From contig JABLUY010000193.1 in NCBI GenBank assembly GCA_013306675.1, positions 1-64,000 on the forward strand: a DNA stretch of 64,000 nucleotides. Reading direction: 5' to 3'. This document shows positions 5,722 to 41,714 of the stretch, piece by piece. Both the position numbers and the translations under genes were made by a program. The DNA is from Thraustochytrium sp. TN22 (Eukaryota > Sar > Bigyra > Thraustochytrida > Thraustochytriidae). Positions within the stretch are counted from its first letter, which is position 1; each line of letters begins with the position of its first letter. The notes beneath the pieces are model-generated. The model made no database searches. It was not told the DNA's origin and saw nothing but the letters and a program-made list of their open reading frames with translations.

Positions 5722-5941
5722 TCAGTCGGCCGGCTGCGCTGTTGCGAAGCGAAAGTCGATGGAGAGCGAGAGCACAGAGTCCTGCAACATGCCATCCGTG
5801 GCACCACCTGCCACAAGAATGCAGTGCTCCGTGCCAGCGTCGGCTAGCGCGTAGCCAAAGTCACTTCGGGGCGATGGAAGGGTTTGTGCGACGAGCCTCC
5901 ACCGCAATGCGCGTTGATCCTGTGGCGCTGGTGACGTCGAA

Positions 5942-5974
<33 letters not shown>

Positions 5975-8235
5975 AACTCCGCGCGTTTCGTGAGTGCATT
6001 CGAGTTGAGCGAGCGAGCGCCGAGGCAGAGCTGCAGGACGCTTGCGAGGTCCGCGTCGGCCGCATCGCGCCCTCCAACGACCACTACTCGAAAGGTGTTG
6101 TCCGGAGCTCGGATGCCGAAAACACCCATGCAGGACCGCGGCCGTGGAAGATCCGGCAGCAGCGATGTCCACTGCAGGGCGACGAAGCGTGACATGGAGC
6201 AGGTGCTCTCGGGAAGGTGAAGCGTCTCGACAGACGCGAGCGTGGCGCCCGTGCGCGACTTGCCGCCAGCGATGATGACCGTGCGCTCGTCGAGGGCGCA
6301 GGTACCTGCCCACATGCGCGGCTCGCGCAGACTGGCGCTCTGGAACCAGCGCGAGCCGCAGGCCCAGACGCTGCCCGTGCCGGATGGCTTTTGCGTGAAG
6401 GGCAGCGCGAGCACCGAGCCGAGCGGTGCGTGAATGGAGGAGGACCCGCCTGCCACAATGAGCACATACTTGGCGTGCGAGCCTGAGCCGGCTCGGAGGC
6501 GGACCCAGGCAGCGCACGCGCCGGCGCGCGGAGCCGGGAGCGCCGGGAGTGCATACCAGACCTTGGTCCGCATGTTGAAAACGGACGCGGCCGTGAGCAT
6601 GAACTGACCAGTGACATCGTAGCCGCCCACAACGGCCGCGAGATGCTTGTCCGCCACTGCGATCGCGCTCTCGGCAATGTGCCGTTCATGGGAGCCGCAC
6701 GCGGCCTGTGCAGACTGCAGGCCAGCTGTCGCGGCTGGCGGCTGCTGCCGCGCTCTCTCCACGGGTGCGGGAGCGGGCGCTAACGCATCGCGCTGCACGA
6801 ACGAGGAGAAGATCTCGTGCATCTGGAGGCGCGGCCGGAGGCTGGCATCCCGGTGCACGTTCTGCGGCTCACCCCCGAAAGCAAAATAGCAGTTCTCGTA
6901 CGAGGCGAGACCGAGGTCACGCATCGGCATGGCGAGCGTACCAACGCGCTCCCACGCCTTGGAGGTGAGGGCCGACTCGCGGGATTGCTTCATGGCCGCC
7001 TCCATGAGCGCACCCAGGGCGCCGTGGTCCCGCGTGATGGCGCGCTGCACCGCCCGGAGAAGACGCGCGATGACGGGCGAGACGTCGTAGGCCGCGGCGG
7101 CCTCGCGCACCATCCGCAGCGCACCCTCGCGCTCATCCATGCCAACGTGCAGACTGGCGGCGATGCGCTCCAAGTCCGCGGTGTCGACGGCGTCGGCCGC
7201 GGCCTCTGCGTTGCAGACCCAGTTCACGAGCGACCGGAGCAAGGTAATTGCCGGGGTGAACGCAGCCTCGGCCTTGCGCAGCCACAGGGCGACCTGGCCC
7301 AGGTCGAGCTTGGCCCAGGCAGAGGTCTGTGCGACGCGGGCCAGGTGGCGCACGACGAAATCCTCGACGCGCTCCATCTCCTCGGCGCTGCCTACCTCCT
7401 TGGTGGTGGCGTAAGCGTCGAGCGCCACAGCCGGCGAGAGAAGAACTCGGAGCCGGCCGAGCGCCGTCTTGCACAAAAAGTGCATGCCCAGCGCCTGAGC
7501 CGCCAGCGCGAGCTGCGCGGCCTCAGCGTACGTTTCGCACGAGACCGCCTGCCCGTGCACGTGTGCGTGCACCATCTGGAGCGTGTCCTGATTGACGCAC
7601 TGCTTTTGACTGTGCACGCGAGCCTTGCCTTGCGCAACCGCCGTCGCCATGATCGCGGACTTGGTCGTCGCCAGGACCACGGGCAGGTCCACGGCCGTGC
7701 CGTCCGATCCCACAACGGTGAGCTGCTTCCCCTGCGCGGACTTGGCCAACTGGAGCAGGTCTGCAATGCTTACAGGCTCACTCGCGTCGAGCGTGGGGTG
7801 CTGATCCAGAGGGCGTTCCGGCTCCGGGGGCGACGAGGTCGAAAAGGACGAGGGGGAGGATGCTGTTTGCGAGATGAGTTTCGCACGAGCTGGCGCACTC
7901 GGAGTTGTGAATGCGGCGGTGCTGCCGTGCGCGAGCCCATCTGGCGAGGTCAAGGACGCGGGCTTGCTCACAGCGGGCGCCTGTGAGGCGGAGCCGAGCC
8001 CTCCTTGGGCGCGCGTGGGCGAGCCGGTGTGTGCTTCGGGCGTCGGCGCCTCGCTGGACTTTCGTGCGAGCAACTCCAGCAGCTGCTTGCGGAGCTCCTC
8101 CTGATTGGGCCCAGACGCGGCCATGGAGCTCGGCCCAACCTCCTTTGCTCGCTTCTGAACCGGTATGCCTTGGTCTTCTTTGGCGCTGCTCTCCTCGCGC
8201 GAGCGCTTGGAGGCAGCTTCGTCCCCGTGCTGCAT
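5722..8235 (-). CDS. BTB-BACK-kelch repeat protein
   Basis: An 837-residue protein with an ATG start at 8235. Residues 1-140 are Ser/Pro/Ala-rich and disordered with a basic KRSREE / QKRAKE region. A BTB-like fold follows at about 150-245 (LTVVGSDGTAVDLPVVLA and on), then an alpha-helical BACK-like region to about 440. From about 500 to the end there are kelch-type repeats, each with a GG doublet after hydrophobic residues: LAAVVGGYD, VLIVAGGSSS, TVIIAGGKS, VVVVGGRD and CILVAGGATD. Proteins with this order usually act as substrate adaptors for cullin-3 ubiquitin ligases; whether this one binds Cul3 is not shown. A run of about a dozen serines from a GAC/GAG repeat interrupts the last kelch region. 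Confidence 0.85.
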
Positions 8236-25809: not shown

Positions 25810-28665
25810 CTATGCGCTGGAGGACAGCTTGCGCAGGACGGCGTCGAGCTTGTCGCGTGGCGAGGCGAGGCGGAGGTGATCCTGCTTGCAGACGGAGGCC
25901 CAAAGGTCTCCGTGGCGAGGCTCGGCGTCGAGGCAGCGGCGCTGCACGGCGGCGGCGGCGTCGGCATCGTCAGCGACGAAGCGCTCAAAGTGGATGAAGT
26001 GGGCCCATGCGTCGCCTAGGTCCGGGTCCGCCTGGACGGCGGCCTCGAACCACTTTCGCGCGGTTTGCAGCTTGTTCTTGGAAGCGAAGAGGCGGCCAAG
26101 CGCGCAAAACACGTGCGGGTCATTGTCGCAGCGCTCCATGGCGTCGGCGGACTTGGCGCGCTGCTCGGGGCGCGGGGCGGCGAGGATGACGTCGGCCCAG
26201 AGGATGCCTGCGGACGGGCAGGCCTGGATGGCCTTGGCTGTGAGGGTGTCGGCCATGCCGGCCTGGCCTTTGTCGCGCTCGAGGCGGATGGACTCGCGCC
26301 AGAGCTCGGCGCTGGCCGGATTCTTGACGCGTGCGAGCTCGAGCACGGAGCGCGCCTTGACGGCGGAGACGAAATCGCGCTCGAGGCGCGCCGCAGCAAG
26401 CCACAGTGGGACAGCCTGCGGGCTGTGCTTGAGGCCATCCAGGAAGAGGCGGCGTGCGGTCTGCACGGCGGCCTCGCGCTCCGCGAGCGGCCTGTAGCGC
26501 AGATGCAGCTGGCCGGCCATGAGCCACAGCTTGGGCTCTGCGGGGAAGCGGCTGTAGCCCTCCTGCAGGAGGCGGTCGGTCTCCTGGAAGAGCGCCTGAG
26601 CAGCCTCGGAGGCCGGGTCGGCGCGGGCGAGTTCGACGCGCTCGAGGAGCGCGGACTTGAGCCAGACTCGTGGCGTAGGGCACCGTTCGCGCGCGTCGCG
26701 TAGCGCGTCGCGCGCTGCGCCGATGTTCCCAGTCTCCCACTCGAGCTTCCATGCAGCAAGCCAGACGCGCTCGGTGTTGTGGCCGGCCTCGTCGATGGCG
26801 CGATCGAGGAGCGCGCGCGCCTGCCGCGGGTCATCAAGCGTGGTCCAAGTCTCCTTGGCGGCCATGAGCCAGAAGAGTTCAGCGCCCGGGCAGCGCTGCA
26901 CGGCCTCGCGCAGGAGCGCATTGAGGGAGCTCTTGTCTCCCTGGCGGCTCTCGAGCGCGACAGCCTTGAGCAGGACGTCCCTGTGGCCGGAAAAGCGCGA
27001 GATGGCCTCGGCGAGAATCTCGCGCGCCGCGACGAGATGGCCGGCCTTTTCCATCGCGAGGGCGTCCGCAAACCAGACGGCCTTGCGGTCCGCCTCGGGA
27101 ACGTCGAGGTCCAGGGTGCCGCGCACCAACGCTCGACAGGACTCCGGGGAGCCGGAGGTCTCGAGTTCGCGCGCGAACTGGAGCCAGTCCTCGCGGGACG
27201 TGACCGGAGGCGGGCCGCCGCCCTCCGGCTCTGTGGCGGACGAGAGCGCGCGCCTGGCCTTGGAAACGATCTTGTCAAGCGTTGCGCGGAGCTTGGCACG
27301 CGCCTCGGGCGACGCGTTTGCCGGGAGCTGTGCCTCTTCGAGCGCGCAGGCAGCAACCCAGAGGCGCGGCTCGCGCGGCAAGTGCTTTCGCGCGGTCTGC
27401 AGTACGGCGCGCGCCTGCTTGTGGTCCTCAAGGCGCGCGAGCGCCAGCCAGAGGTCGACGCTGTCCGGGACACACTCGGTAGCGCGCGCCAGGAGCAGGT
27501 GCGCGTCGGCTTCGTTATCCTCCAGCTCGACAGCGGCTTTCCACAGGCGCTCGGAGCCCGGCAGCGTCTCTAGCGCGCGGCGCAGCACGCGTTTGCGGCG
27601 GTCCACCGCGTCGCCCTCGAGGTCGGCAGCGCGCAGCCAGAGGTTGATGGAGCGCGGCAAATGGCGCAGCGCGTTGTCCAGGATGACCTTGGCGTTGGCC
27701 GGCGTGTTGAGGCGCGCCGCCTCGAGCCAGACTGCCTCCTCGGTCGGGCACACCTTGCAGGCCTCCGCAATGAGGCGGCGCGCATCGAGCAGCTTGCCGT
27801 CGACCTCCTCGAGCCGCGCCGCGGCGATCCAGCCGGGCGCGTGCGTCGGATTCGTGGTGGTGACCGACTTGAAGAGCACGCGCGCCTTTTTGACGTCGCC
27901 CACGCGCGCCGCCGCACCGCCCAGCCCGTCCAGCGACGACAGGTAGTCCTCCGCGTTGATGCCGCCTCCGCCCGCGGTGACGGCGCCGTCGCCTCCTCCA
28001 TCGAGCCGGTCACGCATGGCGCGCCCGCGCTCCGCGCTCATGGCGCTGAGCGCACCGCCCAGACCTGCGGCCGAGAGCAGCACCGAGTCGCTCACTGGCG
28101 TGTATGTATCGTATCGCCGATGTTCGCGCACACCCGAGCGCGCCTCGGGCAGAGCGTCCCACTCCGCCCAACTCACGGTCTTAAGTTGCTGCTTGAGGTC
28201 CGCAAACTGGTCCGCCACGCGCACGGAGCCGCCGTTTTCGCTCTCTTCGCGCCGCGCGCGCTTGCGAGACCCGCGCTCCGCCAGCCGCCGCTCCACGGCG
28301 TCCCAGACCTCATCTGCCTCTCGGTCCGCCATGGATCCGCTCTGCAGAATGGCACCCGCCGTGTCGAGGCTCCCGGCCGCGCCGCCATTCTTGGCGCCGG
28401 CGTCGCGCACGGACTCCGCGGTCGGCTTGGTCTCACCGAAGCCGCCGGCGCCGCGGCCCGCGCCTGCCACGTAGCCCTTGGGTGCCGCGCCGAAGTCCGT
28501 GCGCGCGAGCGCGCCACGCCCGCGTCCCGCGCCCTGCGAAAGCGGCACCGCATCGCTGCGCGTCGTGAATGGCACTGCACCGCGGCCCAGGCCGGCCACA
28601 TACCCGGCCGGCGCGTTCGCCTTGCGAAAGGTCCGCGGCTGCTGGCGTCCATGCTCCTGCGACAT
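25810..28665 (-). CDS. PRPF6: pre-mRNA-processing factor 6 (U5/tri-snRNP HAT-repeat protein)
   Basis: A 951-residue protein, essentially full family length (human about 940). The PRP1 N-terminal domain is at residues about 15-150, with the diagnostic GYVAGLGRGAVPFTTRSD. An extra, related GYVAGAGRGA motif follows at about residue 64. From about 250 to the end the protein is a solenoid of HAT/TPR repeats with repeated LWLAAARLE-type signatures (LWLRAADLE, LWLALARLE, LWVAACALE, VWLAAWKLE). PRPF6 bridges U5 and U4/U6 in the tri-snRNP, so the organism splices even though no gene here has a certain intron. Confidence 0.95.
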   Translation of the reverse strand: MSQEHGRQQPRTFRKANAPAGYVAGLGRGAVPFTTRSDAVPLSQGAGRGRGALARTDFGAAPKGYVAGAGRGAGGFGETKPTAESVRDAGAKNGGAAGSLDTAGAILQSGSMADREADEVWDAVERRLAERGSRKRARREESENGGSVRVADQFADLKQQLKTVSWAEWDALPEARSGVREHRRYDTYTPVSDSVLLSAAGLGGALSAMSAERGRAMRDRLDGGGDGAVTAGGGGINAEDYLSSLDGLGGAAARVGDVKKARVLFKSVTTTNPTHAPGWIAAARLEEVDGKLLDARRLIAEACKVCPTEEAVWLEAARLNTPANAKVILDNALRHLPRSINLWLRAADLEGDAVDRRKRVLRRALETLPGSERLWKAAVELEDNEADAHLLLARATECVPDSVDLWLALARLEDHKQARAVLQTARKHLPREPRLWVAACALEEAQLPANASPEARAKLRATLDKIVSKARRALSSATEPEGGGPPPVTSREDWLQFARELETSGSPESCRALVRGTLDLDVPEADRKAVWFADALAMEKAGHLVAAREILAEAISRFSGHRDVLLKAVALESRQGDKSSLNALLREAVQRCPGAELFWLMAAKETWTTLDDPRQARALLDRAIDEAGHNTERVWLAAWKLEWETGNIGAARDALRDARERCPTPRVWLKSALLERVELARADPASEAAQALFQETDRLLQEGYSRFPAEPKLWLMAGQLHLRYRPLAEREAAVQTARRLFLDGLKHSPQAVPLWLAAARLERDFVSAVKARSVLELARVKNPASAELWRESIRLERDKGQAGMADTLTAKAIQACPSAGILWADVILAAPRPEQRAKSADAMERCDNDPHVFCALGRLFASKNKLQTARKWFEAAVQADPDLGDAWAHFIHFERFVADDADAAAAVQRRCLDAEPRHGDLWASVCKQDHLRLASPRDKLDAVLRKLSSSA

Positions 28666-29670
28666 TGTGGTTTTTGCGTAGAGCGCCGCGTTACTCTCGT
28701 GCGCTCGAACCAGTCAATGGCGGCCGTCACGGGTGGAGGCAGCGGCGCGTCTGCGCGTGCCGCGGCGCCTCGCTGCGCCCACGCCGCCGCCGCCCACGCC
28801 GCAAAACTCGCCCACGCCAGACTCTTGTTTGATCTGGCTGGACCGCTTGAGATAATCGGTGTAACCCATGTAAAAGGACCAATGGTGGACAAGCAGCCGC
28901 CTGAGCGGCGTCAGCCTGAGCACTGCTAGCACTTTGGCACTGCCCTGGCATGAGCACGGGCACGGACACGGACACGGACACGGACACGGACACGGACACG
29001 GACACGGACACAGGCCGATTGGAGTGACTTGCATGTTCGCCTTGGTGGCAACAGGACACGCAATTGAGAAAGAAAAGACTCAGGCGGCAACTGGGTGGCG
29101 GCTGGGCTTCATCCTTGCCCGTGGAAGTTCGCGTCAGTTCGCTCACATGGCTAAGCTCACAGCTCGAGCTGCAGAGTAGGTATAACTTTAGAATTTAAGT
29201 TTACTCTTTTCGAGGGACCAAGACATGGCGCCTCGCTAGGCCCAGGGCCACTTTGTCCCGGCGGCTGTGTGGGGCCTTCGCCCTGTTGTTCCTTGGAGGG
29301 AGGGAGACCCGAATCGCACATGTTCAAGCCAAACCAAAGCAGCGCAGCATGGCAGCATTGGCAGGGCCGACGGCGCCGCGGTGCCGCAGCCTGACTCGGA
29401 GGTGGTACGTCCGGCCGCTCCAAAGTCTTGGGCGGGTGGGAAGTCTTGTGCGCCGCGCGCTCACAGGAAGCCGCCCGCAACGCGCCACGCGGGTTGCTCT
29501 ATCTGTAGTCTGCAAAGTCTGCACTGCGCGGCGCACTGGCGGCGCGATGCAGGTGGCGCCGGGCGGAGCGAGCGGCGTCGGCCAGCAGTCCAGCATCCAG
29601 GCAACCTCTCTCGCCTCGCCTGGCCACAGTAGCAGCGCAGCACTGGCAACGAGCTACTCAGGGCAGCAGG
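28666..29670. promoter_or_regulatory. divergent intergenic region with hexanucleotide tandem repeat
   Basis: 1005 bp between PRPF6 and the first GNAT gene. A CACGGA repeat of about eight copies spans 28961-29012. Short ORFs across it are low complexity and not convincing. Presumed promoters of both flanking genes. Confidence 0.45.
28961..29012. repeat. CACGGA tandem repeat
   Basis: About 8.5 copies of a 6-bp unit, essentially perfect. Confidence 0.95.
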
Positions 29671-30168
29671 ATGGCGTCGAGCGAGGCCGCGGGCAACGAT
29701 GAGTACGTGCTGCGCAGGGCGACGCCGGAGGATGGCGAGACGCTGGCGCAGTTCAACATCGACAGCGCGCTCGAGACGGAGGACCGCAACCTGGACGGCG
29801 ACACGGTGCGCGCCGGCGTGCGGCGGCTGCTGACGGATGAGTCCGGCTCGATGGGCTTCTTCCTCGTGGTGGAGAAGGACGGCAAGGTTTGCGCCGCCGC
29901 CATGGTGACCTTTGAGTGGTCCGACTGGAACAACGGCAACTACTACTGGATTCAGAACGTCTACGTGGTCCCGGAGCACCGCCGTCGCGGCCTCTTCAAG
30001 CGCCTGTACGCTGAGATCGTGTCGCTCGCCAAGGCCGCCAAGGCCGCGGCCGTGCGTCTCTACGTGGAGCAGACCAACGAGCGTGCCCAGTCTACATACA
30101 AGGCCATGGGCATGGAGCAGAGCCACTACCTCATGTTCGAGGCCAGCCTTCCACCCTCGAGCTCCTGA
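29671..30168 (+). CDS. GNAT-family N-acetyltransferase, copy 1
   Basis: A 165-residue protein, one complete GNAT fold. The N-terminal YVLRRATPEDGETLAQFN is the typical first strand and helix. The acetyl-CoA pyrophosphate loop is VVPEHRRRGLFKRLY (the R/Q-x-x-G-x-G/A-like motif A), preceded by the substrate strand NNGNYYWIQNVYV. The C-terminal strand holds AVRLYVEQTNERAQSTYKAMG, with the Asn/Tyr pattern of motif B. The substrate is unknown; the YWIQ.VYV and YKAMGM.QSHYLMFE features suggest an uncharacterised small-molecule or peptide acetyltransferase. It is followed on the same strand by a close paralogue. Confidence 0.9.
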   Translation: MASSEAAGNDEYVLRRATPEDGETLAQFNIDSALETEDRNLDGDTVRAGVRRLLTDESGSMGFFLVVEKDGKVCAAAMVTFEWSDWNNGNYYWIQNVYVVPEHRRRGLFKRLYAEIVSLAKAAKAAAVRLYVEQTNERAQSTYKAMGMEQSHYLMFEASLPPSSS

Positions 30169-30250
30169 ACCCGGCCGCACGCCCAAGGCGACGCCACGAT
30201 GCGCGTTGCGTGCATGGGTGTATGTGTCGCGCGTTGCGTGCATGTGCATA

Positions 30251-30846
30251 TGTCGCGCGTGCGTGGACAAAGGCCGAGCTGACGAGAAAGAAAGTGCGGA
30301 CACGTGCCGCCCCTCAAACTTTCGCTGCGCCGTTCTTTGTGATGAAGAGTAACTCCGTAAATGCACCTGCAGCGCGTGGTGAGCGAAACAATCCTTGCCC
30401 TCCCGTCAGTCATATCTTGTTTTATGACTGTCATGGTTGGCTAGCTTGTGCTCAAGGACGCCTGGCCGCCTTCACGTGTTTTCCATTGCAACGAGCTGTG
30501 CGGGCAATGATTTCCCCTTCGCGAAGCCTTGGCCCGTATGTGCCGCGCGTGCGGCGACGAAGGCCGAGCTGACGACAAGAAAGATAGTGCGGGCACGTGC
30601 TCCCCTCGAGCCTTCGCTGCGCCGTACTCTGCGATGAAGACTAAGAATGCTATCTCACTGTCAGTAGATGCACTTGCAGCGTGTGTCGAGCGGCGAAAGA
30701 GCGCTTGCTCTCCCGTCAGCCATGTCTTGTTCATAGCTGTCATGGCTGGCAAGCTGTGATGCTGGCTGCTGGCTGCATCTACTCGTTCTCCATTGCAGCG
30801 AGTTGTGCTGCCAATGGTTTCCCCTTCGCGAAGCCTTGGCCCTTTT
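30251..30846. repeat. imperfect head-to-tail duplication, unit about 290-305 bp
   Basis: Copy A 30251-30540 and copy B 30541-30846, offset 290 bp at the left end and about 306 at the right because of small indels. The repeat is visible by eye from many shared 10-18 bp blocks. Neither copy appears downstream of the second GNAT gene, so it did not come from simple duplication of a gene plus its flanks. Confidence 0.75.
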
Positions 30847-31079
30847 GTTCGCGATCGCCCGCGCCGAGCCCTCCACGCCTCTGTGAGCCGTGCCGGGCTC
30901 ACAAGAAGGGACCAAGAACGCCGCGCCGTGCCGCAGAGCGCCGCCGCAGAGCGCCTTCGGGACTGACCGTGTACAGCCACGGACGCGCTCTCGCGCAGGC
31001 AACGCAAGGCAGCAGACCCGCAACGAGCCTCTGCCGGCAGCACACGCGTAGGCAGCAAGCGCAGCGGCAGCGGCAGCGG

Positions 31080-31080
<1 letters not shown>

Positions 31081-31128
<48 letters not shown>

Positions 31129-31129
31129 G
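31081..31129. repeat. CAG triplet repeat in the leader of GNAT copy 2
   Basis: About 16 CAG units ending 38 bp before the ATG at 31167. Confidence 0.9.
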
Positions 31130-31166
31130 CAGCAGCCGCCTCCAGAGCACCAGGAACAAGAGCGCC

Positions 31167-31685
31167 ATGGCATCGAGCGAAGCGGCTGCTGCCGACACCG
31201 GCAGCGGCGACGACTACACACTGCGCAGGGCGACGCTGGAGGACGCGGAGACGCTGGCGCAGTTCAACATCGACAGCGCGCTTGAGACTGAGAATCGCAA
31301 GCTGGATGGCGACAAGTCGCGCGCTGGCGTGAAGCGACTGCTGAGCGACGAGAGCGGGTCCATGGGCTTTTACCTGGTCGTGGAGAAGGAACAGAAGGTC
31401 TGCGGCGCCGCCATGGTGACCTTTGAGTGGTCCGACTGGAACAACGGCAACTACTACTGGATCCAGTCTGTCTACGTGGTGCCGGAGCACCGCCGCCGCG
31501 GGCTCTTCAAGCGTCTGTACACGGAGATCGTATCGCTCGCCAAGGCTGCCGATGCCGCGGCTGTGCGCCTCTACGTGGAGCACGACAACGAGCGCGCCAA
31601 GGCAACCTACAAGGCCATGGGCATGGAGCAGAGTCACTACCTCATGTTTGAAGCGGAGGTGCCGTCGTCGACGACCTCCAAGTAG
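31167..31685 (+). CDS. GNAT-family N-acetyltransferase, copy 2
   Basis: A 172-residue protein starting at the ATG at 31167 (gccATGg context, MASSEAAAADTG). The frame is open upstream to 30681 but that part is Gln/Ala-rich leader, and the chosen start aligns with copy 1. The two copies share most residues: FEWSDWNNGNYYWIQ, VYVVPEHRRRGLFKRLY and TYKAMGMEQSHYLMFE are the same. Differences cluster at the N-terminus, the LVVEKEQKVC loop and the C-terminus. Same family role and unknown substrate as its neighbour; a tandem duplication. Confidence 0.9.
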   Translation: MASSEAAAADTGSGDDYTLRRATLEDAETLAQFNIDSALETENRKLDGDKSRAGVKRLLSDESGSMGFYLVVEKEQKVCGAAMVTFEWSDWNNGNYYWIQSVYVVPEHRRRGLFKRLYTEIVSLAKAADAAAVRLYVEHDNERAKATYKAMGMEQSHYLMFEAEVPSSTTSK

Positions 31686-32663
31686 CTCAAAAGTGCAGTC
31701 GTGAGCAATTCATCATCGCCTGGGATTTCCCGGCGCAACGCTGCCGAGACTCGACTCCCGGCTACACGCGCTGGTCGCTGCTCTTTTTCTCCTTTCTGAT
31801 TCAATACGCGCTGCCGCCGTTTTCTACTGGCACATGGTCAATCGCCCTCCTCAAAATAACACGGTATTTCTTGCTCCCCGGTACAACTTCATTCTTCCTC
31901 TCTCCTTTTCAAAATAAGGTGCTCGCGTTCGTGTGCAGCGTTGTTTTTGTCTCCCCTGGCATCGATCGCACCACGCTCAGCCTCTCGCACTCCACTCGTC
32001 TTTGCTTGCTCTTAGTAGCTAGCTACTAGTTACCACAACGGGCATCCGCCCTTGTCTCATTCCCCACCCCGGGTCCCCCCCCTCTCACTGGTGACTGGAC
32101 CTGCTTCGGAACGCTATCTGTGCATCCATCCGGTCCATCCGGCTGCGACCGTGGCGTCGATCCGCCAGGCCAGGCCTGCAGGAAGCTTCGCGGTCAAAGT
32201 TCGCTTTTCATCACTGCACGCTGGTCGCTGCCAGTGGCGCGAAAGCCACAGTCGCCGCCGCCATCACGACTCCACGAGCGCAGTCCGCACCACAGGCGGT
32301 GGCGGCGCCGCGAGAAAGCAGCTTCTACAGCGTGGTGCGCGCGCGTACGAGCGTGCGCAGCGCGGCGCCCGGAGGTCAATTCGTTACACGGATGTGCTGC
32401 GCTGCGCTGCGAGGACGTCTTCTGGTTAGGTGCCACTATGCCGGTTCTCTTTCTACTAACTTAGTTTGTAGTGCTCAGCCATGGATGCGTCATTCAGCTT
32501 CATCTCGGCGGTATTTGGGATGAACGGCTCTTCTTCTCCATGCAAGTCTTGCAAGAGCCTGCTGAGAGGTGCTCACGTCGGCTTGCATTGCTGACAGATA
32601 CGAAGGCCCGCCGTCGGCCCGCGCCTTGGCGGCGCGCGGCCGCGGCGGCGGCGGCAGTGGCGG

Positions 32664-32694
<31 letters not shown>

Positions 32695-32767
32695 GGTAGC
32701 TGCGACGGCGAAAATCATGGGGAGGATCAGCCCCTCAATACGAGCAGTGAGCCCGTTGCGGGCCACC
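31686..32767. promoter_or_regulatory. intergenic region with GGC triplet repeat before the membrane-protein gene
   Basis: 1082 bp. The first part (31690-32060) is unusually rich in C/T and AT compared with the surroundings, with TTTTC-type tracts (3' flank of GNAT copy 2 and possible promoter). GGC repeats lie at about 32640-32700 next to the downstream gene's start. An in-frame GTG-initiated extension (32471 onward) crosses the repeat but is mostly alanine. Confidence 0.45.
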
Positions 32768-34810
32768 ATGAATTTCTCGAGCGACGCCTTCCACACGGCC
32801 GTGGCGACGCAACGAGCGCAGCAGCAGGCCAAGTCGTTCCAGAGGTACGCCGACCGTACGGAGCGCGAGCTTCAGGACACGCAATATGGGCTGCAGCAGC
32901 CGCACAGGCGTGAGTCGCACTTGCGCCTCTACCTGCCGGCGGAGCGAGCCATGGTGTATGCGAGCCAAAACACGGTGGGCAGACTGCTGCTTTCGGAGCG
33001 ATGGCAAGTGCTCCTCTTGTCGCGGAAGACGCTGTTCTATCGCTTCGTGATCTTCAACTTCATGTTGCTTGCCGGCGTTGCTCTGTATTTGTACAGCCTA
33101 CACGCTCCGGGTCCAACGGGACTAGGCGGCCTTCTTGTTGTGCCACCATCCCTATCTGGGATCCTCTTCATGAACCCGATGCTAGTCAAGCTTAGCCTAC
33201 GGCAGTTCAACTCCATCTTCATGATGGCAAACCTAATCGGCGTGTGGACGTGTATCGGCGTCATGTTTGAGGATAGAAGCATCACGGTCGGGTTCGTGGG
33301 CATTTTTCTCGCCGGAGTGGTATACATTTTCCAGGACGCGACGTCGCCGGCGTTCCGAGGTAGATACACGGCGTTCGCGACGGGAATCGGGGCGCTCAAT
33401 TTGATTGTGCTGGTGCTCATGTTCTTCCTCGGGGTGGCGCGGCCGACCAGGACGGTGCTGACGTTTCGCGGCCGCGAGTTCAAGCCCCTGTTGCGCATGA
33501 TCAACTGCGCAATAAACCTTATTGTCTACCAGCTGCGTGTTCTGGTGCAGCACTGGCTCAATCAGAGCCACAAGCTGCTCAATGTGCGTTCGACGACGCG
33601 GTCCGTACAGGTTTCGGTGCGCGAACTGGATGACCTGCGGGAGCTGACGCAGGCTCTACGAGATTTGGAGGCGAAAAAGCAGCTGCCGAAGCACGAGACA
33701 GTGCGCGTGGTGTATCCGGTCGTGGCGCCGCGCGTGCTGCGGCACAGCGATAGCGTGCTCGCAGCGGTCTTCTCACTGCGGGTCCATCAGGGAGTTTACC
33801 GGTTGGTCGTATACAATCGCTATGGCATCGCATTCATGACGCTGTGGTCAATCAGCACGGTGGTTGCGTGCACGCTGGCCGCGATGCACAGTCATTTTGG
33901 GGCCCTGGCGCTGCCCGCCGTGCTGTCTGCCATCTCGCTTAGCGCGGTTTTGATTGGGCTCATGAGCATGCGCATGCTTACGAGCATCGTCCGGCGATTT
34001 GACGTGGCCTTTACGCTGGGCAATCTGTCTGTACTCTTGTGCTGGGGCTCTCTCGCACTCAGTACGTGGAGCGCATACATCGCATGGTGCGCACTCGTAC
34101 TCAAGATCCAGCTCGTCTTCTTCAGCGACGCGCTCCCGGCCAAGCTCGCCACGAGTAGCGTGCGCAAGGGTGTTTGCTTGGGGTGCTCCCTTTGCGTCAC
34201 TTACCTCCTGATAGCCTTCCTCTTCGAGTGGGCCGACACGCTCTTGTATCGGCCCATCATGGTCATGGGCCGCGCCTACGATACTCTGGACGTCATGTTT
34301 GGCGGTCTCTCCACGGTCTCCGTTTTTGTGTTCAAGTCCTACATCTTCAGCATCAGTCATCCAGAGAGCCTTTCCCACTTGCGGCCTCTCATGGTGACTG
34401 CGCGGGTCCACAAAGACTTCGTCGAGCTCTTTGACGCTCTGGTCGACTTCGACACAACAACCTGCAGCACTGAATCTGTCCACGGCAGGGCTAGTGACCG
34501 TGGTCGTCAAAGCTTCTGGCGCAAAATTCATCGTCGTGCTGGCGTTGGTGTCTATGAGAATGACAACGAAGACGAAGACGAACGAAGCATTCTGGATCCT
34601 GGTGAGGAAAGAAGACCAACTGGCAGCAATGACGACCGCGATACGAATGACGACGACGACGACGACGATGATCATGATGGGAGAAGCATCGAACACGTCA
34701 CCAGCAGGAGCAAGGTCGTTGACCAAACGGGTAAAGGAGAGCAGTCGAGCCCTGACATTGAGGATCTGTCTCCGGTTTCCAAGCTGTCTGCGGTTTCCGA
34801 GAACATGTAG
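32768..34810 (+). CDS. orphan polytopic membrane protein with acidic tail
   Basis: A 680-residue protein from the ATG at 32768, which has an optimal context (gccaccATGa); an alternative in-frame ATG is at 32717. I do not recognise the family. A soluble, Gln/Arg-rich N-terminus of about 80 residues is followed by two groups of hydrophobic helices. The first has about five segments (residues about 90-260: RFVIFNFMLLAGVALYLY, IFMMANLIGVWTCIGVMF, VGFVGIFLAGVVYIF and others). A cytosolic-looking linker follows (about 270-350), then a second set of about five (about 355-540: LWSISTVVACTLAAM, LSAISLSAVLIGLMSM, GCSLCVTYLLIAFLF and others). The last 120 residues are acidic and Asp-rich. The two-block layout suggests an internal duplication or a transporter/receptor-like fold. 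A segment (codons covering 33722-33780) reappears inverted downstream. Confidence 0.75.
   Translation: MNFSSDAFHTAVATQRAQQQAKSFQRYADRTERELQDTQYGLQQPHRRESHLRLYLPAERAMVYASQNTVGRLLLSERWQVLLLSRKTLFYRFVIFNFMLLAGVALYLYSLHAPGPTGLGGLLVVPPSLSGILFMNPMLVKLSLRQFNSIFMMANLIGVWTCIGVMFEDRSITVGFVGIFLAGVVYIFQDATSPAFRGRYTAFATGIGALNLIVLVLMFFLGVARPTRTVLTFRGREFKPLLRMINCAINLIVYQLRVLVQHWLNQSHKLLNVRSTTRSVQVSVRELDDLRELTQALRDLEAKKQLPKHETVRVVYPVVAPRVLRHSDSVLAAVFSLRVHQGVYRLVVYNRYGIAFMTLWSISTVVACTLAAMHSHFGALALPAVLSAISLSAVLIGLMSMRMLTSIVRRFDVAFTLGNLSVLLCWGSLALSTWSAYIAWCALVLKIQLVFFSDALPAKLATSSVRKGVCLGCSLCVTYLLIAFLFEWADTLLYRPIMVMGRAYDTLDVMFGGLSTVSVFVFKSYIFSISHPESLSHLRPLMVTARVHKDFVELFDALVDFDTTTCSTESVHGRASDRGRQSFWRKIHRRAGVGVYENDNEDEDERSILDPGEERRPTGSNDDRDTNDDDDDDDDHDGRSIEHVTSRSKVVDQTGKGEQSSPDIEDLSPVSKLSAVSENM
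33722..33780 (+). repeat. inverted repeat arm 1 (inside membrane-protein CDS)
   Basis: 59 bp encoding VAPRVLRHSDSVLAAVFSL. Its reverse complement recurs at 34891-34949 with 4 mismatches. Confidence 0.9.
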
Positions 34811-35194
34811 CAATATGCGCGCACAATCCCGGTACTGATTGATCACGGCGTCATGGATTCGATTTACCACCAGTGATAAGATTGATCCGGCGCAGTGAGA
34901 AGATCGCTGCGAGCACGCTATCGCTGCGCCGCAGCACGCATGGCGCCACTATATCGGAGACACCACACCATGCGCACGCACAGTCTCGTGCTTCGGAGTT
35001 TCTCCCACACCATGCGCTGGCACATTCTCGTGTGCTTCGGAGTTCTTCCGAAAAACCAAGACTCGAGTTTCGAAGCTTGTGCAATTTTTTCATCGTGGTG
35101 CAATTTTCATCTTTCATCGTTCTTCTCCTCACTACTTCCTATGTACAAAGGTGTTGTTGTGGGTTTTGTTGGATACAGAAGAGGGCGCGCGTGA
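34811..35194. other. convergent intergenic patchwork
   Basis: Between the membrane-protein gene and the fusion enzyme gene. It holds the inverted copy (34891-34949) of the upstream coding segment and a two-copy direct repeat of period 42 bp (about 34964-35045, sharing CACACCATGCG and CTTCGGAGTT). The rest is AT-richer than its surroundings and probably carries both 3' end signals. Confidence 0.6.
34891..34949 (-). repeat. inverted repeat arm 2 (3' flank of membrane-protein gene)
   Basis: Reverse complement of 33722-33780 over 59 bp, 4 mismatches (55/59). Read on the minus strand it would encode VAPCVLRRSDSVLAAIFSL, with three amino-acid changes, so it could derive from this gene or a paralogue. 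Confidence 0.9.
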
Positions 35195-37615
35195 TTACTG
35201 GCGATTGCGACGCTCAATGTTGCGCTCGAAGGCCTTGCGCATGGTGTCGTTATCGATCATGAAGGCGTAAGTGTCGTTCTCCGGGTTGGCGGCCATCCAA
35301 CCGATGCGCTTGGCGAGGCCCATGGTCGCCTTGCCGCCGACAAAGTGCTTGTCGAACTTGAGGGTCTCGAGGATCTGGTCAATGGTCATCTTCTCCGGCA
35401 CGAAGCAGGGCAGGCCGGTGGCGCCGACGATGTCGTAATGCTCGTCGACAACAGACTCCTCGCAGATGCCGAGCAGGTAGGCGATCTCGGCGGACACGCA
35501 CATGCCGATGGCCACGGCCTCGCCATGGAGCATGGGCTCGTTGCCGTGGTGCCAGGAGAGGTGCTCGATAGCATGGCCGGGGGCATGGCCGTACTGGGGC
35601 ACCATCTCGTTGTAGGCGTGCTCGGCGTTGTAGTTGGGGCCGAGGGTGGAGACCTTCTTCTCCATGCACTCGATGATGAGCTTGAGGAGGTAGTCACCAT
35701 CGTGGAGGGCGGCCGAGAGCTCCTCGCCGGTCTTGCCGCGCAGGGGCTTGACGATGCGGTCGGTGAACTCGGTGCACTGGCAGAGCGCGTGCTTGAGAGC
35801 CTCGGAGATGCCGTTGAGCATGTGGCGGTCCGAGAGCGAGTAGAGCGCATCCGGGTCCATGATGAGATAGTCGGCCGGGTAGTAGCAGCCAAGGAGGTTC
35901 TTGCCGAACTCCTGCACATTGAAGGCCTTCTTGAAGTCGCACGAGGCATCGAGCATGGCCATGGAGGTGGTCGGGATGGTGACCATCTTGATGCCGCGGT
36001 ACAGCGTGCCAGCGATGGTGCCGGTGATGTTGTCGACGGTGCCGCCACCGAGCGAGATGAGGCAGGTGTGCTTGGACACGCCGTTGGCGAGGATGGTGTC
36101 GACGATGCGGTGGAACTGCTCCGAGTTCTTGAAGGGCTCCGTCGAGGGCTCGCCGGACTCGTCCATGGCGGCCGAGGGGATGACGATCTTCTCGACGCTG
36201 AGGCCGCAGTCGCGGAAGCCCTGGAGCACGGTGTCGCCGTAGATGCCGTCGACGATCTCGTCCGTAACGAGGTAGCACGGGGCGTTGTGGGAGTCCTCCG
36301 GGATGACGGTCTTGCCGACGGTCTTGAGGTTCTTGAGGATGCCGCGCTGGATGACAATCTCGGTCTCCAGGTACTTGCCCGGGCGCTCGAACTTGTTGCG
36401 GAAGCAGCCGTTGGCATCGACCTCGCACGGGGTGCGGAAGGCCTGGGTGCCCGGGTGGCCGCCGCGCACCGAGTACTCCGAGTCCTGCTCGAGGTCGAAC
36501 CAGGGCGGGCTGCAGAAGCGGAAGCCGCGGTCGAGGGCGTCGATGCGCTTCATCTGCGGGTTGGTGAGGCGCCAGTCGAGCACCTCGCGGTTGGCGCGAA
36601 TGCGGTCCGGGTTGAGGCTCTTGGGGATGACCGAGACACCGCGCTGAATGCCCCAGCGCAGGATGACCTGGCCGGGCGACTTGCCGGTCTCCTCAGCAAT
36701 GGCCAGGACGGTCTCATCCTCGAGGATGGACGGGTCGCCCTTGTTGCGGTAGCCGACCTTGCCGAGCGGGGAGTAGGCGACGACGTTGATGCCCTCCTTC
36801 TGGCAGAGCTCGAGCAGGCCCGGCTGCTGCAGGTACGGGTGCATCTCGACCTCGAGCACGGTGGGGCGGATGCGGCAGCGCTCGAGCAGGCCCTGGAGCG
36901 TGCGCGGGCCCATGTTGCTGACGCCGAGGGTGCGCACGACGCCCATGTCGACGAGGCTCTCCATGGCGGCGTAGGTCTCCATGATCTTCTCGATGTCGGT
37001 GCCGTCGTGGACGACCTCGTACTCGAACTTGCCGCCAAAGTCCGGCGAGACGAGCTTGCCGCCCTTGGCCATGCGGTTGGGCCAATGCATCATGTAGTTG
37101 TCAAGGTAGTCGACCTGGAGGTCGGCCATGGTCTTGCGGCAGGCCGGCTCGACGTCCTCGGGGGCGGCGTCCCAGCACCAGAGCTTGCTACAAACAAAGA
37201 GCTCCTCGCGCTCCACGTCGCCGTCCTCGAGCGCGTCGGTGAGGGCCTCGCCGACCTCCTTCTCGTTGCCGTAGAGGGCCGCGCAATCGAGCATGCGGTA
37301 GCCCTCGCGGAGCGCGACGGCGACAGCGTCCTTGACCTTCTGGCCGTCCTTGAACTCGTTGAAGGTGCCGAAGCCCAGCAGGGGCACGGCGACGAACTGG
37401 GAATTTGACGAGGAGCCGCCGCTGGTCTGGGACTTGGCCTCGGCGTCCTCGAGGTTGGCGAGCGAGTTGGAACTCGCGCCGCTGCTCATCTTGGTCTCGC
37501 TCTCCATGGAGCGGAAGCTGCTGGTGCTCAGCTTACGGCGGGGCTGGTCCTCCTTGCTCAGGGCCGGGGCCATGGCGAGAGCCTCGCGCTCCTGCTGCTG
37601 CTCGTAGATGGGCAT
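35195..37615 (-). CDS. fusion enzyme: aldo-keto reductase + dehydroquinate-synthase-like sugar phosphate cyclase
   Basis: An 806-residue protein with two complete catalytic domains. Residues 1-73 are a Ser-rich linker. Residues about 75-400 are an aldo-keto reductase with the full tetrad: Asp and Tyr in MLDCAALYGNE, Lys in CSKLW and His in MMHWPN, plus the cofactor-binding VIPKS. Residues about 430-806 are a sugar phosphate cyclase of the DHQ synthase superfamily: NAD-binding SLGGGTVDNITGTIAG, RGIKMVTIPTTSMAMLD, the divergent DFKKAFN in place of GGKTAIN, GKNLLGCYYP, GISEALKHAL, and metal-binding GHAPGHAIE and LHGEAVAIGM. The KKAFN...GKNLLGCYYP block looks more like 2-deoxy-scyllo-inosose synthases than true DHQ synthases; the product is unknown. 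The reductase could act on the cyclic ketone the cyclase makes (inference). Confidence 0.93.
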   Translation of the reverse strand: MPIYEQQQEREALAMAPALSKEDQPRRKLSTSSFRSMESETKMSSGASSNSLANLEDAEAKSQTSGGSSSNSQFVAVPLLGFGTFNEFKDGQKVKDAVAVALREGYRMLDCAALYGNEKEVGEALTDALEDGDVEREELFVCSKLWCWDAAPEDVEPACRKTMADLQVDYLDNYMMHWPNRMAKGGKLVSPDFGGKFEYEVVHDGTDIEKIMETYAAMESLVDMGVVRTLGVSNMGPRTLQGLLERCRIRPTVLEVEMHPYLQQPGLLELCQKEGINVVAYSPLGKVGYRNKGDPSILEDETVLAIAEETGKSPGQVILRWGIQRGVSVIPKSLNPDRIRANREVLDWRLTNPQMKRIDALDRGFRFCSPPWFDLEQDSEYSVRGGHPGTQAFRTPCEVDANGCFRNKFERPGKYLETEIVIQRGILKNLKTVGKTVIPEDSHNAPCYLVTDEIVDGIYGDTVLQGFRDCGLSVEKIVIPSAAMDESGEPSTEPFKNSEQFHRIVDTILANGVSKHTCLISLGGGTVDNITGTIAGTLYRGIKMVTIPTTSMAMLDASCDFKKAFNVQEFGKNLLGCYYPADYLIMDPDALYSLSDRHMLNGISEALKHALCQCTEFTDRIVKPLRGKTGEELSAALHDGDYLLKLIIECMEKKVSTLGPNYNAEHAYNEMVPQYGHAPGHAIEHLSWHHGNEPMLHGEAVAIGMCVSAEIAYLLGICEESVVDEHYDIVGATGLPCFVPEKMTIDQILETLKFDKHFVGGKATMGLAKRIGWMAANPENDTYAFMIDNDTMRKAFERNIERRNRQ

Positions 37616-38505
37616 GGTGGCTTTGTAGCTTGTGACTTGACTGCGGAATTCGAGAAGTCTTTCCAGGGGAATGTACTTCGCGTTCTGGTTCTCCGTGCGT
37701 CGTTTGTTTGGTCTTCGGGTTCTGGTTTTGCTCTGCCCCGCGCGCCGCCGCCGCGGTCCTGCACGAGGCTGGGACAGCCTCTGCGCGTCCCAAGCGGCCT
37801 CCCCCCCAGGCCGCGCCGCGCAACCCCCCTGAGCCCCACTGGGGTTCCCCGCCCAGGCCCCCGTACCTCTGGAGGCCTAGGACAGGCGACGAACTGCGCG
37901 CGCGGCCGGGAAGTCTGCCAGAAGCACCGAAGCCGGCCGGCCGACGTCGGCCAGAGCTCGCGCGGCTACCGGAAGCTCTTGCTGGTTTCGCGGACGTCGC
38001 GGCCGCCCCCCCCGGCGCGCCTCGCGCGCAAGCGCCGGCGCCGCGCGGAAAAAGCGCGGAATCGCAGTTCTGCGCCGAGCTCGCAAGCGGCCAGCCTGCC
38101 AGCGCGCACTTGTGACGCGCAGCGCCACTACGTCTGCCCGCGCGAGTGGCCTGCCTGCCTGCCTGCCATGGCTGCTGTGCTGTTCCGGCGCGCGCCACTC
38201 TGTAGTACTGCAGCGCAAGCACTGGCAGGGCAAGTGCCGTTCGTTCCGTCGCAGGTGCTCCGCGGCCGGCGCAGCGCGGGGCGGGCGCCGCGCCCCGACT
38301 GCCCCCCGCGCTCGCAGGCGACGCGGCCGCTGCCCCGTCACTGCGCCTCCGCGGTGACGCCGCCGCGTCGACGCGCCCCGCCTTTCCCCCGCCCGCGCCG
38401 CGCGCCGGGAGCAGCCCGTGGAACCGCGCGCCATGCCCCCCCGCGCTGCCCCCCTTGCGAACCGTCACGTCCGAGCCGACTCAGCCGAGGCCGCGATCCT
38501 CGCGT

Positions 38506-38563
38506 CGCATCGCATCGCGCTGCATCGCATCGCATCGCATCGCATCGCATCGCGTTGCATCGA
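38506..38563. repeat. GCATC pentanucleotide repeat
   Basis: About eleven imperfect copies of GCATC. Confidence 0.85.
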
Positions 38564-38963
38564 GTCCAGTCGGGTCAGGCTCGGCCAGGCGAGGCGAGGC
38601 GAGGCCAAGCCCCGCGCCCGCGCCTCGCCGTGCGCTGCGCGAGTTCTCCGCTGGGCTAGCTCAGGCTCAGACGCGCGGCGAGCAGCGGCGAGCAGCGGTG
38701 ACGAGGTTCCGGGAGGTCAGGCTGCTGCCAGTAGCCCAGCTTGCCCGCGCCCGCCTGCCAAGCAGTTGCTCGTTGCCTTTCCTCAAGTTTCCTGACGTTG
38801 ACTGACATTGCTTGCTCTTCACGTTAGGCCGAGTTTCTGTCAGTCAGTAGGGCACGCGCCTGCGATACCAGCGTGCCGACGCACACCGCAACGGCGGATC
38901 GAGCAGGCTGATAGGCGTCGTGGTCAGTGCAGCGCTGGAAGGCAGCGCGCCGAGGCTCGGCTT

Positions 38964-38991
38964 GGCCAGCCTAGCCTAGGCTAGGCTGGCC
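38964..38991. repeat. perfect 28-bp palindrome
   Basis: GGCCAGCCTAGCCT followed directly by its exact reverse complement, with no spacer. Could extrude a cruciform. Confidence 0.9.
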
Positions 38992-41714
38992 TTAGGCCTA
39001 GATGGCAGCCAGCGCGCTAAGGAAGCCAAGAAGATCGAGAACCAGCGCCCTCCGCCGGCCGGCTAGCAGCCAGGCCCACTGCCGGCAGGAAGGCAGGCAA
39101 GAACATCGGAGAAATGATCAAAGATCAGAGGCCAGCCACCCAACGGCGGCGGCGGCGCGGGCAGCGGCGCCGCAACCGCGCGAGCGGTGGCGGCTCGGAG
39201 ACGGTGGTGGCCCAGCGGCCAGCGGCCATCGCCGGGCGGCTCAAGTCGCTCGCTCAACGGCGGTGGTGTGTCGTGCCCCCCTGAGACTCCTGTGAACGAG
39301 GTGAAGCCCTGAGCATCAGCGGCTCGTGAAGCGCCGACCACGGGCGGAGGAGCACGGGAGGCTACATTTCCACCTGGCGCGCTCCTCAGACAGGCCGCGG
39401 GTGTCTCGATCCTCCTCTCGAACTCACACCCAGCGGCCACCTCGCTCAGGGGCACCGCCCGTCGGCGCCCGTGGCCGAGCACGTCCGACACACTCCGTCC
39501 GGGTCCCGCTCGCGGCCCACGAGGGAGTTTAAGCTACGCTTGGAAGTTGTCCTTGAGAGCAAGCAAGCAAGCAAGCAAGCTAACTTTAGCAAGCAACTAG
39601 CCCGCGACTGCACGGCCGCGAAGGCTTCTGCGCCCGCGCATTGGCGTCATCACGCAAAGGTTGCTAGCCGCTCCGGGGTCTGCAGCTCGCGCCCGCGAGG
39701 TCGGAGCACTCTGCGCGGCCGCCTAGGCGTATCCTGGACTTGCTCTGCACGAGCGGCCCCGGCTCGCCAGCTTGCGCAGCTCGCGCTGCATGATGATTTA
39801 GGCCGGCAGCCCAGATGCTGCACCGTGCTCCCCCGTTCCGCGCCTCGCGCGTCTACGTGTCCTCCTACGTCAGCCAGCCAGCTGATTGGCTGAGCGCCCG
39901 GCCAGTGCCACTGCACCAGCCTCACCCGAGGCCGAGAGCGCGAAGCTTCAAGTGACTCTAGAAGCCCAGCAACTGCTCCAAGCGGGTTGCGCTCCTTGAG
40001 GCTGCCGTGCACTGCGGTCCGTTGGCCTTGCAAGGCGCCGCTCTCGTCGACATGCGTCTCCTTGACAAGTTGACACTGAGATTCACTCACCCGCCCGCTC
40101 GCTCGGGCCGCTCTGTCCGAACGGCCGCCGCCGGCCGCCGCCGGCCCGGGCCGCCGCCGGCGCCCGGGCCAGCGCCCTCGCCGCGCCGCGCCGCGCCGCG
40201 CCGCGCCGCTTCTCAAGTTTCTCGAGCTCCTTCTCGAGCGCCAAAGCGGGCTCTCCATAGAGTCGCCAGGTGGACCTGTTGAAAATCCGGCGGCAGGTCG
40301 GGGTGGGCCGTTGAGTGCCCGGCTGCGAGCTGGCGCCAGTGACCGCTTAGCGTTCGTCCTACTTGCATCATCAGCGGGCGTCGCCGCCTCTGAATGCCCG
40401 GGGGAGGGCGCCGCGCCGGCGCACCCGGACGTCCCAGGACCCACGGTCCCGGACCGGCGCCGCGGCGGCGGAGGGGCAACGGAAAAGCCCCCGTTGGCTG
40501 GCCGCCCGTGGCCGCCCGTCCGTGCCTCCAGCCCGAGCCGCGTCATCAGCCCCGCGCTCGCAGGCGCTCGCAGTCCACGCGCTGCGCGAACGCCGCGCTG
40601 CCAGTTTCTGCGCGCTCCTGCGCGCTTCCGCGCGCGTGGCGGGGCCTGGCCTCGCTACGGAACGATAGCAAGGCCCAGCTGCCCCAGCACCTTACTGTTA
40701 GCGAGCAGGCAGGCATGCCAAAGCTTCCGCTTGCTGCGCACACGCCAAACGCCGCGTTGAACGCTGCGTCGCTGCTTGCGTGCCTTGCGTGCTCTGTTCG
40801 GAGCTCGTGTGGCCAATGGCTGGCGCACGCGCGGAAGCGCGCACAGCACGGCGAGGCCGTGGCCGACAAGGCCCGACGCGCGGCCCGAGTCTTGGATGGC
40901 CTTGAGAAACACGGGGCTACACGGGGTGGTGGAGCTGGTGGAGGGAGTTTGCTTCGAACGCACTGCGTGTGCATCTCGCGATGGCTCGCGATGCATTGCT
41001 CTGTTTTTTGTTCCGAGCAGCCAGTTGGACTCGAACAGAGAAGTCTCTGGACATTTCATGGGTGGGAGATTAGGTGTGAGCGTGCTGTGAAGTTGGCTGG
41101 GTGCTCAATCCAACTCGACTCGCACGCTGCTGAGGCTGCTCGCTGGTGGCGCGGCTTGGAATCGGCGTTGCAGCCGCAGCCATTCCAAGACGGGAACTCC
41201 GAGTCTCCGACCTACCTACTAGTACCTGCACAAGCTTGAAGGCTGCGTCGAGGTTGATGACGGGCCCTGGTGGCTGTAACCTCAACGCACAGGCTGCAAC
41301 TTGCAAGGGAAGAAAGATTCTTGCTGGCGACTCACGTCAGGCGTTTCGTGGGCGAGATGCGAAACTTCGAGCTCGACCTCAAGCCCGACCTCAAGCTCAT
41401 GTTGCATGAGCTCGACCTTTTGCACATCGTGCTCGAGCTTGCCTTGCAGCAGTTCGAGCGTGTGGCCATGTTCCCTGGAGAGCCAGGCTTGTTGTGCTTT
41501 CGCTGTCAAGTTCTGCGCCTGCAGTTTTGCCGCGATCATGACAGTGACGGTCAGCCGCTTCTCAATCACAACTTGAACTAGGGCCTAGCTAGGCCTACGT
41601 TTCACTTTCACTGTCAGCTCAGGCACGGCGGTGCGAGACGATGCTGCAGTCCCAGCTCCGCGCTCTCTTGAGGCCTATGATCACTTAGCTTCACTTGACA
41701 AGAACCAAATCAAA

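Follow-up and report, generated by a model that had tools for sequence, protein, structure and literature searches.

A fused aldo-keto reductase–sugar phosphate cyclase gene of Thraustochytrium sp. TN22 as a candidate cyclitol synthase

We analysed the first 64,000 nucleotides of contig JABLUY010000193.1 of Thraustochytrium sp. TN22 (assembly GCA_013306675.1), a stretch called the window below, in which one gene joins an aldo-keto reductase (AKR) to a sugar phosphate cyclase (SPC). Its frame of 806 amino acids runs on the minus strand at 35195–37615, from an ATG start to a stop without an internal stop, and the sequence evidence confirms the fusion gene as real. The cyclase half appears to represent a deep lineage adjoining the bacterial 2-deoxy-scyllo-inosose synthases (DOIS); by the tests run, it is not itself a DOIS. 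We propose, with about an even chance of being right, that the protein is a bifunctional cyclitol synthase, which would convert a hexose 6-phosphate through deoxyinosose to a deoxyinositol (quercitol). A first-pass annotation, made by a model from the letters alone, had described the region as an AKR fused to an atypical cyclase, with catalytic residues in both halves and a build suited to two steps. The frame, the Pfam domains and a second fused copy bear out the fusion, and the apparently intact AKR tetrad and metal ligands agree with the two-step build; the interpretation of that annotation as a whole is partly supported.

The two halves of the fusion and its second copy

The N-terminal half falls in the AKR superfamily, with PF00248 above its cut-off (Table 1) and the Asp-Tyr-Lys-His residues, which we take to be the catalytic tetrad, in place. 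The segment IPKSLNPDRIRANREV presumably corresponds to the NADPH-binding signature of AKRs. The best solved relatives of this half are proteins named aldehyde reductase (E 8.4e-78). With aldehyde reductase (PDB 1cwn and 2alr, which we take to be AKR1A) it shares the entire AKR domain, the tetrad and the NADPH signature, whereas its C-terminus continues into a linker and the cyclase. The C-terminal half falls in the SPC superfamily: DHQ_synthase (PF01761) matched residues 491–599 (E 7e-25) and DHQS_C (PF24621) residues 602–757 (E 1.5e-18), both above the curated Pfam cut-offs, and E194, H271 and H287, presumably the metal ligands (Glu605, His677 and His697 of the query), are present. TIGR01357, the model of 3-dehydroquinate synthase (DHQS), scored 185.9 bits on cyclase residues 420–777, below its cut-off of 305, and so does not class the query as a DHQS.

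Table 1. Features of the fusion gene, in window positions
Feature	Position	Strand	Evidence
AKR–cyclase fusion, entire gene, 806 aa	35195..37615	-	frame, Pfam, paralogue on own-genome contig C77
N-terminus, Ser-rich, weakly conserved, residues 1–74	37394..37615	-	49% aa identity to paralogue over 71 codons
Aldo-keto reductase domain, residues 81–362	36530..37375	-	PF00248 Aldo_ket_red, E 1.9e-50, above curated cut-off
AKR residues Asp110, Tyr115, Lys144, His177	37085..37288	-	alignment with PDB 1cwn
IPKSLNPDRIRANREV, residues 330–345	36581..36628	-	position located in AKR half
Linker, residues 373–414	36374..36499	-	paralogue identical at 41 of 42 residues
Sugar phosphate cyclase domain, residues 415–806 and stop	35195..36373	-	PF01761, PF24621, TIGR01357
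GGGTVDN; final Asn at the Asp119 position of A. nidulans DHQS	36029..36049	-	fingerprint alignment
DFKKAFN block	35918..35938	-	counterparts: usually GGKTxxx in DHQS rows, xxKQAVN in DOIS rows (BtrC compared)
GKNLLGCYYP block	35876..35905	-	counterpart in Sodalis DOIS: GKNLLGCYYMP
NEMVPQYGH: Arg264 to Glu (Glu670 of the query), Leu267 to Pro, Asn268 to Gln (Gln674 of the query); metal-ligand His271 retained	35585..35611	-	fingerprint alignment
Cyclase Glu605 (E194), His677 (H271), His697 (H287)	35525..35803	-	identical in every row displayed

The genome of the strain (37.9 Mb in 453 contigs) contains a paralogue of the gene on another contig, C77. It is the same fusion, with 89% identity across residues 5–804, and has a stop 4 codons ahead of the ATG that corresponds to the start used here. 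Because this copy on a different contig carries the same fusion, a chance frame, a misassembly or two adjoining genes read as one is an unlikely source of it. When the copies were compared over 13 kb and 9.9 kb, the gene alone matched and the flanks did not; the two copies are thus dispersed in the genome, and the fusion is retained in both. The dN/dS ratio between them is about 0.20 for the AKR half and about 0.13 for the cyclase half, so both halves are being kept, and purifying selection acts on each. Synonymous divergence is uneven along the gene (dS 0.38 in the AKR half, 0.04 in the linker and 0.16 in the cyclase half), which suggests gene conversion between the copies.

Active-site residues and class of the cyclase half

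The cyclase half was compared with its relatives at 16 positions, numbered as in the A. nidulans DHQS and counted by hand on the alignment. States were tallied in 8 rows of DOIS, 8 rows of cyclases of sedoheptulose 7-phosphate (S7P; EEVS and DDGS) and 95 rows of DHQS. The DOIS rows comprise one solved enzyme, two annotated ones and five assigned by similarity, and the S7P rows one solved, three annotated, one (Nostoc) matching 5tpr and three from another search. The DHQS rows (76 from the genome scan described below, 16 from another search and 3 others) are annotated only in part and are so called as being neither DOIS nor L066, a row from a metagenome-assembled genome named Thaumarchaeota archaeon DeMMO3_24. 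L066 was left out of the class counts and displayed separately. Rows excluded before counting were L147 (internal TGA), L149–L152 (scores at the DHQS level), L115 (the same gene as L109) and loci L132–L144.

The query retains the core residues R130, D146, K152, K161, N162, E194, K197, H271 and H287. Four states found in 95/95 DHQS rows are changed in it (D119 to N, R264 to E, L267 to P and N268 to Q), so it does not have the DHQS fingerprint. It keeps K250 and H275, where the S7P rows have Met (7/8) or Tyr (1/8) and Pro (8/8), respectively, so the EEVS/DDGS fingerprint is absent as well. The earlier claim that the cyclase is neither an ordinary DHQS nor an EEVS/DDGS therefore holds, and the DFKKAFN and GKNLLGCYYP motifs that had been singled out are both present. 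Asn119 occurs in all 8 DOIS rows and in both query copies; all DHQS and S7P rows have Asp at this position. R264 is lost in the query as in DOIS. With R264 and N268 in the roles ascribed to them in DHQS, we read the fingerprint as suggesting a substrate that lacks the carboxylate of 3-deoxy-D-arabino-heptulosonate 7-phosphate (DAHP), and a DOIS-like pocket that has changes of its own.

The comparison with individual systems gives the same mixture of likeness and difference. With DOIS (BtrC, PDB 2d2x/2gru, and the enzyme of Sodalis praecaptivus) the query shares the SPC domains, the metal ligands, Asn119, the lack of Arg264 and a KxAxN block, and its identity to the Sodalis enzyme is 29.4% over 79% of the domain; unlike DOIS, it is fused to an AKR and lies in a eukaryotic genome. 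With DHQS (AroB and the DHQS domain of AROM) it shares the superfamily, the NAD and metal core, Lys250, His275 and Lys356, and differs at positions 119, 264, 267 and 268 and in having no shikimate gene among the scanned neighbours. The superfamily and the metal core are also shared with the S7P cyclases, from which Lys250 and His275 set it apart. EboD is reported in PMC5133447 as an uncharacterised SPC lineage of eustigmatophyte plastids and bacteria that occurs in a stramenopile; the sole EboD row compared has His250 and Asp119 and lies on a different branch from the query.

In a tree of 44 rows, the query pair, the 8 DOIS and L066 lie on one side of a branch with support of 99/98. In a tree of 38 rows without L066, the query pair groups with the 8 DOIS at 98/94 and the DOIS alone form a group at 100/98, which puts the query next to this group and outside it. 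Masking the 16 active-site columns in the second row set gave 94/81 for the branch joining query and DOIS, so the placement does not depend on the fingerprint alone. DOIS is thus the nearest branch in three trees, which share most of their rows and are not independent.

Several observations weigh against an assignment to DOIS or a firm place beside it. L066 also has Asn119, so this residue is not exclusive to DOIS, and within the DOIS-side group of the 44-row tree the query pairs with L066 at only 79/36. The query has Gln268 and Lys356, where all 8 DOIS rows have Glu and Asn, and so does not have the DOIS fingerprint in full. The masked branch is below the mark of 95, and the branch of the query is long (2.7–2.9 changes per column). 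Approximately unbiased (AU) tests on the first row set left open a grouping with the S7P cyclases (p 0.09), with the strain's own DHQS (p 0.12) or with a set made up of Ebo, S7P and two additional rows (p 0.16). The query scored 175.9 bits against the DOIS profile, far below the 384–525 bits of the 8 DOIS when each was left out (left-out scores were computed for DOIS only). It scored slightly higher against DHQS profiles, with 183–213 bits in 12 draws of eight rows each and 228.5 bits with all 95 rows, and lowest, at 137.8 bits, against the S7P profile. No class profile clearly places the query, and we relied on the tree and the residue fingerprint because the profile scores fail to do so. The first-pass suggestion that DOIS would be closest thus stands for the nearest class in the trees, whose support for a position beside DOIS is 99/98, 98/94 and 94/81, and for Asn119; membership in the class is not borne out by the profile or by positions 268 and 356, and the AU tests leave other placements open (p 0.09–0.16).

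Proposed reaction and competing explanations

The products of SPCs are ring ketones, on which a fused carbonyl reductase using NADPH would naturally act next, and reduction of the ketone of a deoxyinosose yields a quercitol. In the proposed mechanism, the cyclase half would bind NAD+ and a divalent metal and convert glucose 6-phosphate or an epimer to deoxyinosose with loss of phosphate. The NADPH-dependent AKR half would then reduce the ring ketone of deoxyinosose to the deoxyinositol, and the fusion may pass the reactive ketone directly to the reductase half. The product might serve as a compatible solute, with (-)-proto-quercitol as the first candidate because its accumulation in thraustochytrids is reported in the title of a 2007 paper by Jakobsen et al. 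We infer the substrate, the order of steps, the channelling, the product, its role as a solute and the production of quercitol by this strain.

A more specific version, in which the fusion is the thraustochytrid quercitol synthase and forms (-)-proto-quercitol from a hexose 6-phosphate by DOIS-type cyclisation, perhaps inversion at C4, and then reduction, is offered tentatively, as a possibility with less than an even chance. The stereochemistry is a difficulty here: by our own reasoning, plain DOIS chemistry on glucose 6-phosphate followed by reduction gives scyllo- or vibo-quercitol, and proto-quercitol (1,3,4/2,5) requires either that C4 be inverted or that the substrate be galactose 6-phosphate, or mannose 6-phosphate used with the opposite aldol face. 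Speculatively, the departures from the DOIS residues may have to do with this stereochemistry. The earlier annotation had suggested that an undescribed cyclitol could be made; we keep the cyclitol and narrow it to quercitol, a known compound.

DOIS itself uses glucose 6-phosphate, with NAD, according to a passage of PMC6170601. The Jakobsen paper is cited by title in the reference lists of PMC11951076, PMC6923395 and PMC5794333. An excerpt of PMC8919412 describes quercitols as abundant in oaks and eucalypts, their synthesis in plants as not elucidated, and their synthesis in bacteria as proposed from glucose or myo-inositol; a quercitol route through other enzymes is therefore possible. In the CC-licensed literature, no gene for quercitol synthesis was named among the matches listed, and we found no report of a fusion of an AKR with 3-dehydroquinate synthase in a protist or of quercitol together with 2-deoxy-scyllo-inosose. 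Within the available sections of two thraustochytrid genome papers, the terms quercitol and shikimate were not found in PMC6050695, nor inositol and dehydroquinate in PMC12258536. With a candidate gene and a simple two-step assay, the origin of quercitol becomes testable. If the proposal is true, the gene would put deoxyinosose chemistry to a use other than antibiotics in a eukaryote and open a genetic route to an important marine osmolyte. It would also place a eukaryotic lineage beside a cyclase class for which every other member found here comes from a prokaryote, and offer a self-contained enzyme for cyclitol production.

Other substrates and products have to be weighed against the quercitol proposal. 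The two-step design might act on sedoheptulose 7-phosphate, or on a different sugar phosphate with seven carbons, and yield a reduced C7 cyclitol of the valiolone type, and this we consider unlikely. The AU test on the first row set did not reject a grouping with the S7P cyclases, and by eye the LGPNYNAE that precedes YGH is similar to the LEPNLWE found in EEVS, but the query has Lys250 and His275 against Met or Tyr and Pro in 8/8 S7P cyclases, its S7P profile score is the lowest of three, and with the active-site columns masked the second row set rejected the S7P grouping (p 0.026). The same two residues argue against a gadusol or mycosporine-like product, which we regard as extremely unlikely; the gadusol-like compound of the first-pass annotation is not supported because Lys250 and His275 replace the states that mark the S7P cyclases. 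The organism is a marine protist, and PMC4426668 places EEVS and MT-Ox in the stramenopile Aureococcus. As in the gadusol pathway known from fish and certain algae, a cyclase would be followed by a redox enzyme in a two-step cyclitol route; that pathway, however, has two genes, an EEVS-type cyclase and, as the partner described in PMC4426668, a methyltransferase-oxidoreductase instead of an AKR. An equally low chance to that of the C7 cyclitol is given to a cyclase that acts on a different sugar phosphate, and whose product, neither quercitol nor a C7 cyclitol, the AKR would reduce. No class profile fits the query, and Pro267 and Gln268 are states of its own; nothing found speaks positively for another substrate, and DOIS is the nearest branch in the overlapping trees.

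A diverged DHQ or aminoDHQ synthase, working in a shikimate or 3-amino-5-hydroxybenzoate-like route, is very unlikely. The slightly higher DHQS profile scores and an AU test that does not reject a grouping with the strain's own DHQS speak for it; the replacement of all four states fixed in the DHQS rows and the TIGR01357 score far below its cut-off speak against it, as do an orthodox DHQS and an EPSP synthase encoded by separate genes. The genome has three genes of the DHQ_synthase family, namely the fusion, its copy and the orthodox DHQS (contig C45), which carries GGKTGVN and KRALLNLGH; EPSP synthase is a separate gene on contig C244. Because these genes exist separately, the fusion cyclase is, on this gene content, not the shikimate enzyme. 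An outcome that would have spoken against the first-pass reading, a cyclase firmly inside DHQS with shikimate-pathway neighbours, was not what we found, with no shikimate gene among the 22 neighbouring frames scanned. It is also distinctly unlikely that the halves serve different reactions and were joined for regulation or dimerisation only. AKRs are broad carbonyl reductases, and channelling is not visible in sequence, but the linker is almost invariant between the copies, the fusion is retained in both, and the ketones made by cyclases are a natural kind of AKR substrate.

Genomic surroundings and relatives elsewhere

Around the fusion gene, we scanned 22 of the 89 other window frames that are 200 aa or longer, and no shikimate or known cyclitol-route gene was found among these 22. 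They include a PRP1-type splicing factor, a GNAT acetyltransferase, a histidine phosphatase, an acyl-CoA dehydrogenase with cytochrome b5, a PI3/PI4-kinase-type protein with FAT and FATC, a protein kinase with EF hands, a tubulin-tyrosine ligase, a GPR180/TMEM145-type membrane protein and a CXC-domain protein; several of the scanned frames have no family match.

A scan of genome contigs matched 266 stretches, 235 of them related, and the best 80 of these 235 comprise 3 DOIS-like rows, L066 and 76 counted as DHQS, with a top identity of 34%. Relatives may be missed because the scan depends on two short peptide patterns. Viral contigs yielded no relative. None of 115 plasmid records reached at least 60% identity (at most 31.4% among the matches listed), and none of 14 phage records did so. 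In 87 genomes of the phylum of L066 (E <= 1e-40), a profile match of 153.6 bits was rejected as an ordinary DHQS by eye, lying between shikimate-pathway frames. The L066 frame itself (4097–6202, plus strand) has 701 aa, with an N-terminal part that resembles a sugar-binding protein by eye and the cyclase with Asn119, and it adjoins a shikimate-dehydrogenase-like frame. On a plasmid of Streptomyces sp. NBC_00853, a DOIS-type cyclase annotated as a hypothetical protein (3755–4906) has an inosamine-phosphate amidinotransferase and an aminotransferase close by, and the three may belong to an unlisted aminocyclitol cluster.

Elsewhere in the genome of the strain, a TauD/TfdA-type dioxygenase is fused to an AKR (contig C22, 3742–5931, minus strand; Pfam 1.7e-36 and 9.5e-47), and, the paralogue aside, this AKR ranks best (40%) among the own-genome matches of the fusion's AKR half. 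A PfaA-type frame of a polyunsaturated fatty acid (PUFA) synthase (3044 aa, 2539.7 bits, 10 acyl carrier protein motifs) stands head to head, in divergent orientation, with a 2083-aa ketosynthase-type, OrfB-like frame. We take this layout to be that of the thraustochytrid OrfA and OrfB, and the pair is most likely of the thraustochytrid type. Besides this PUFA synthase, contig C410 has a 5691-aa frame (about 25857–39995, minus strand) with several ketosynthase-like stretches. In the window, a TCGCA tandem repeat (38500–38562; period 5, 12.6 copies, 81% matches) lies about 0.9 kb upstream of the fusion gene.

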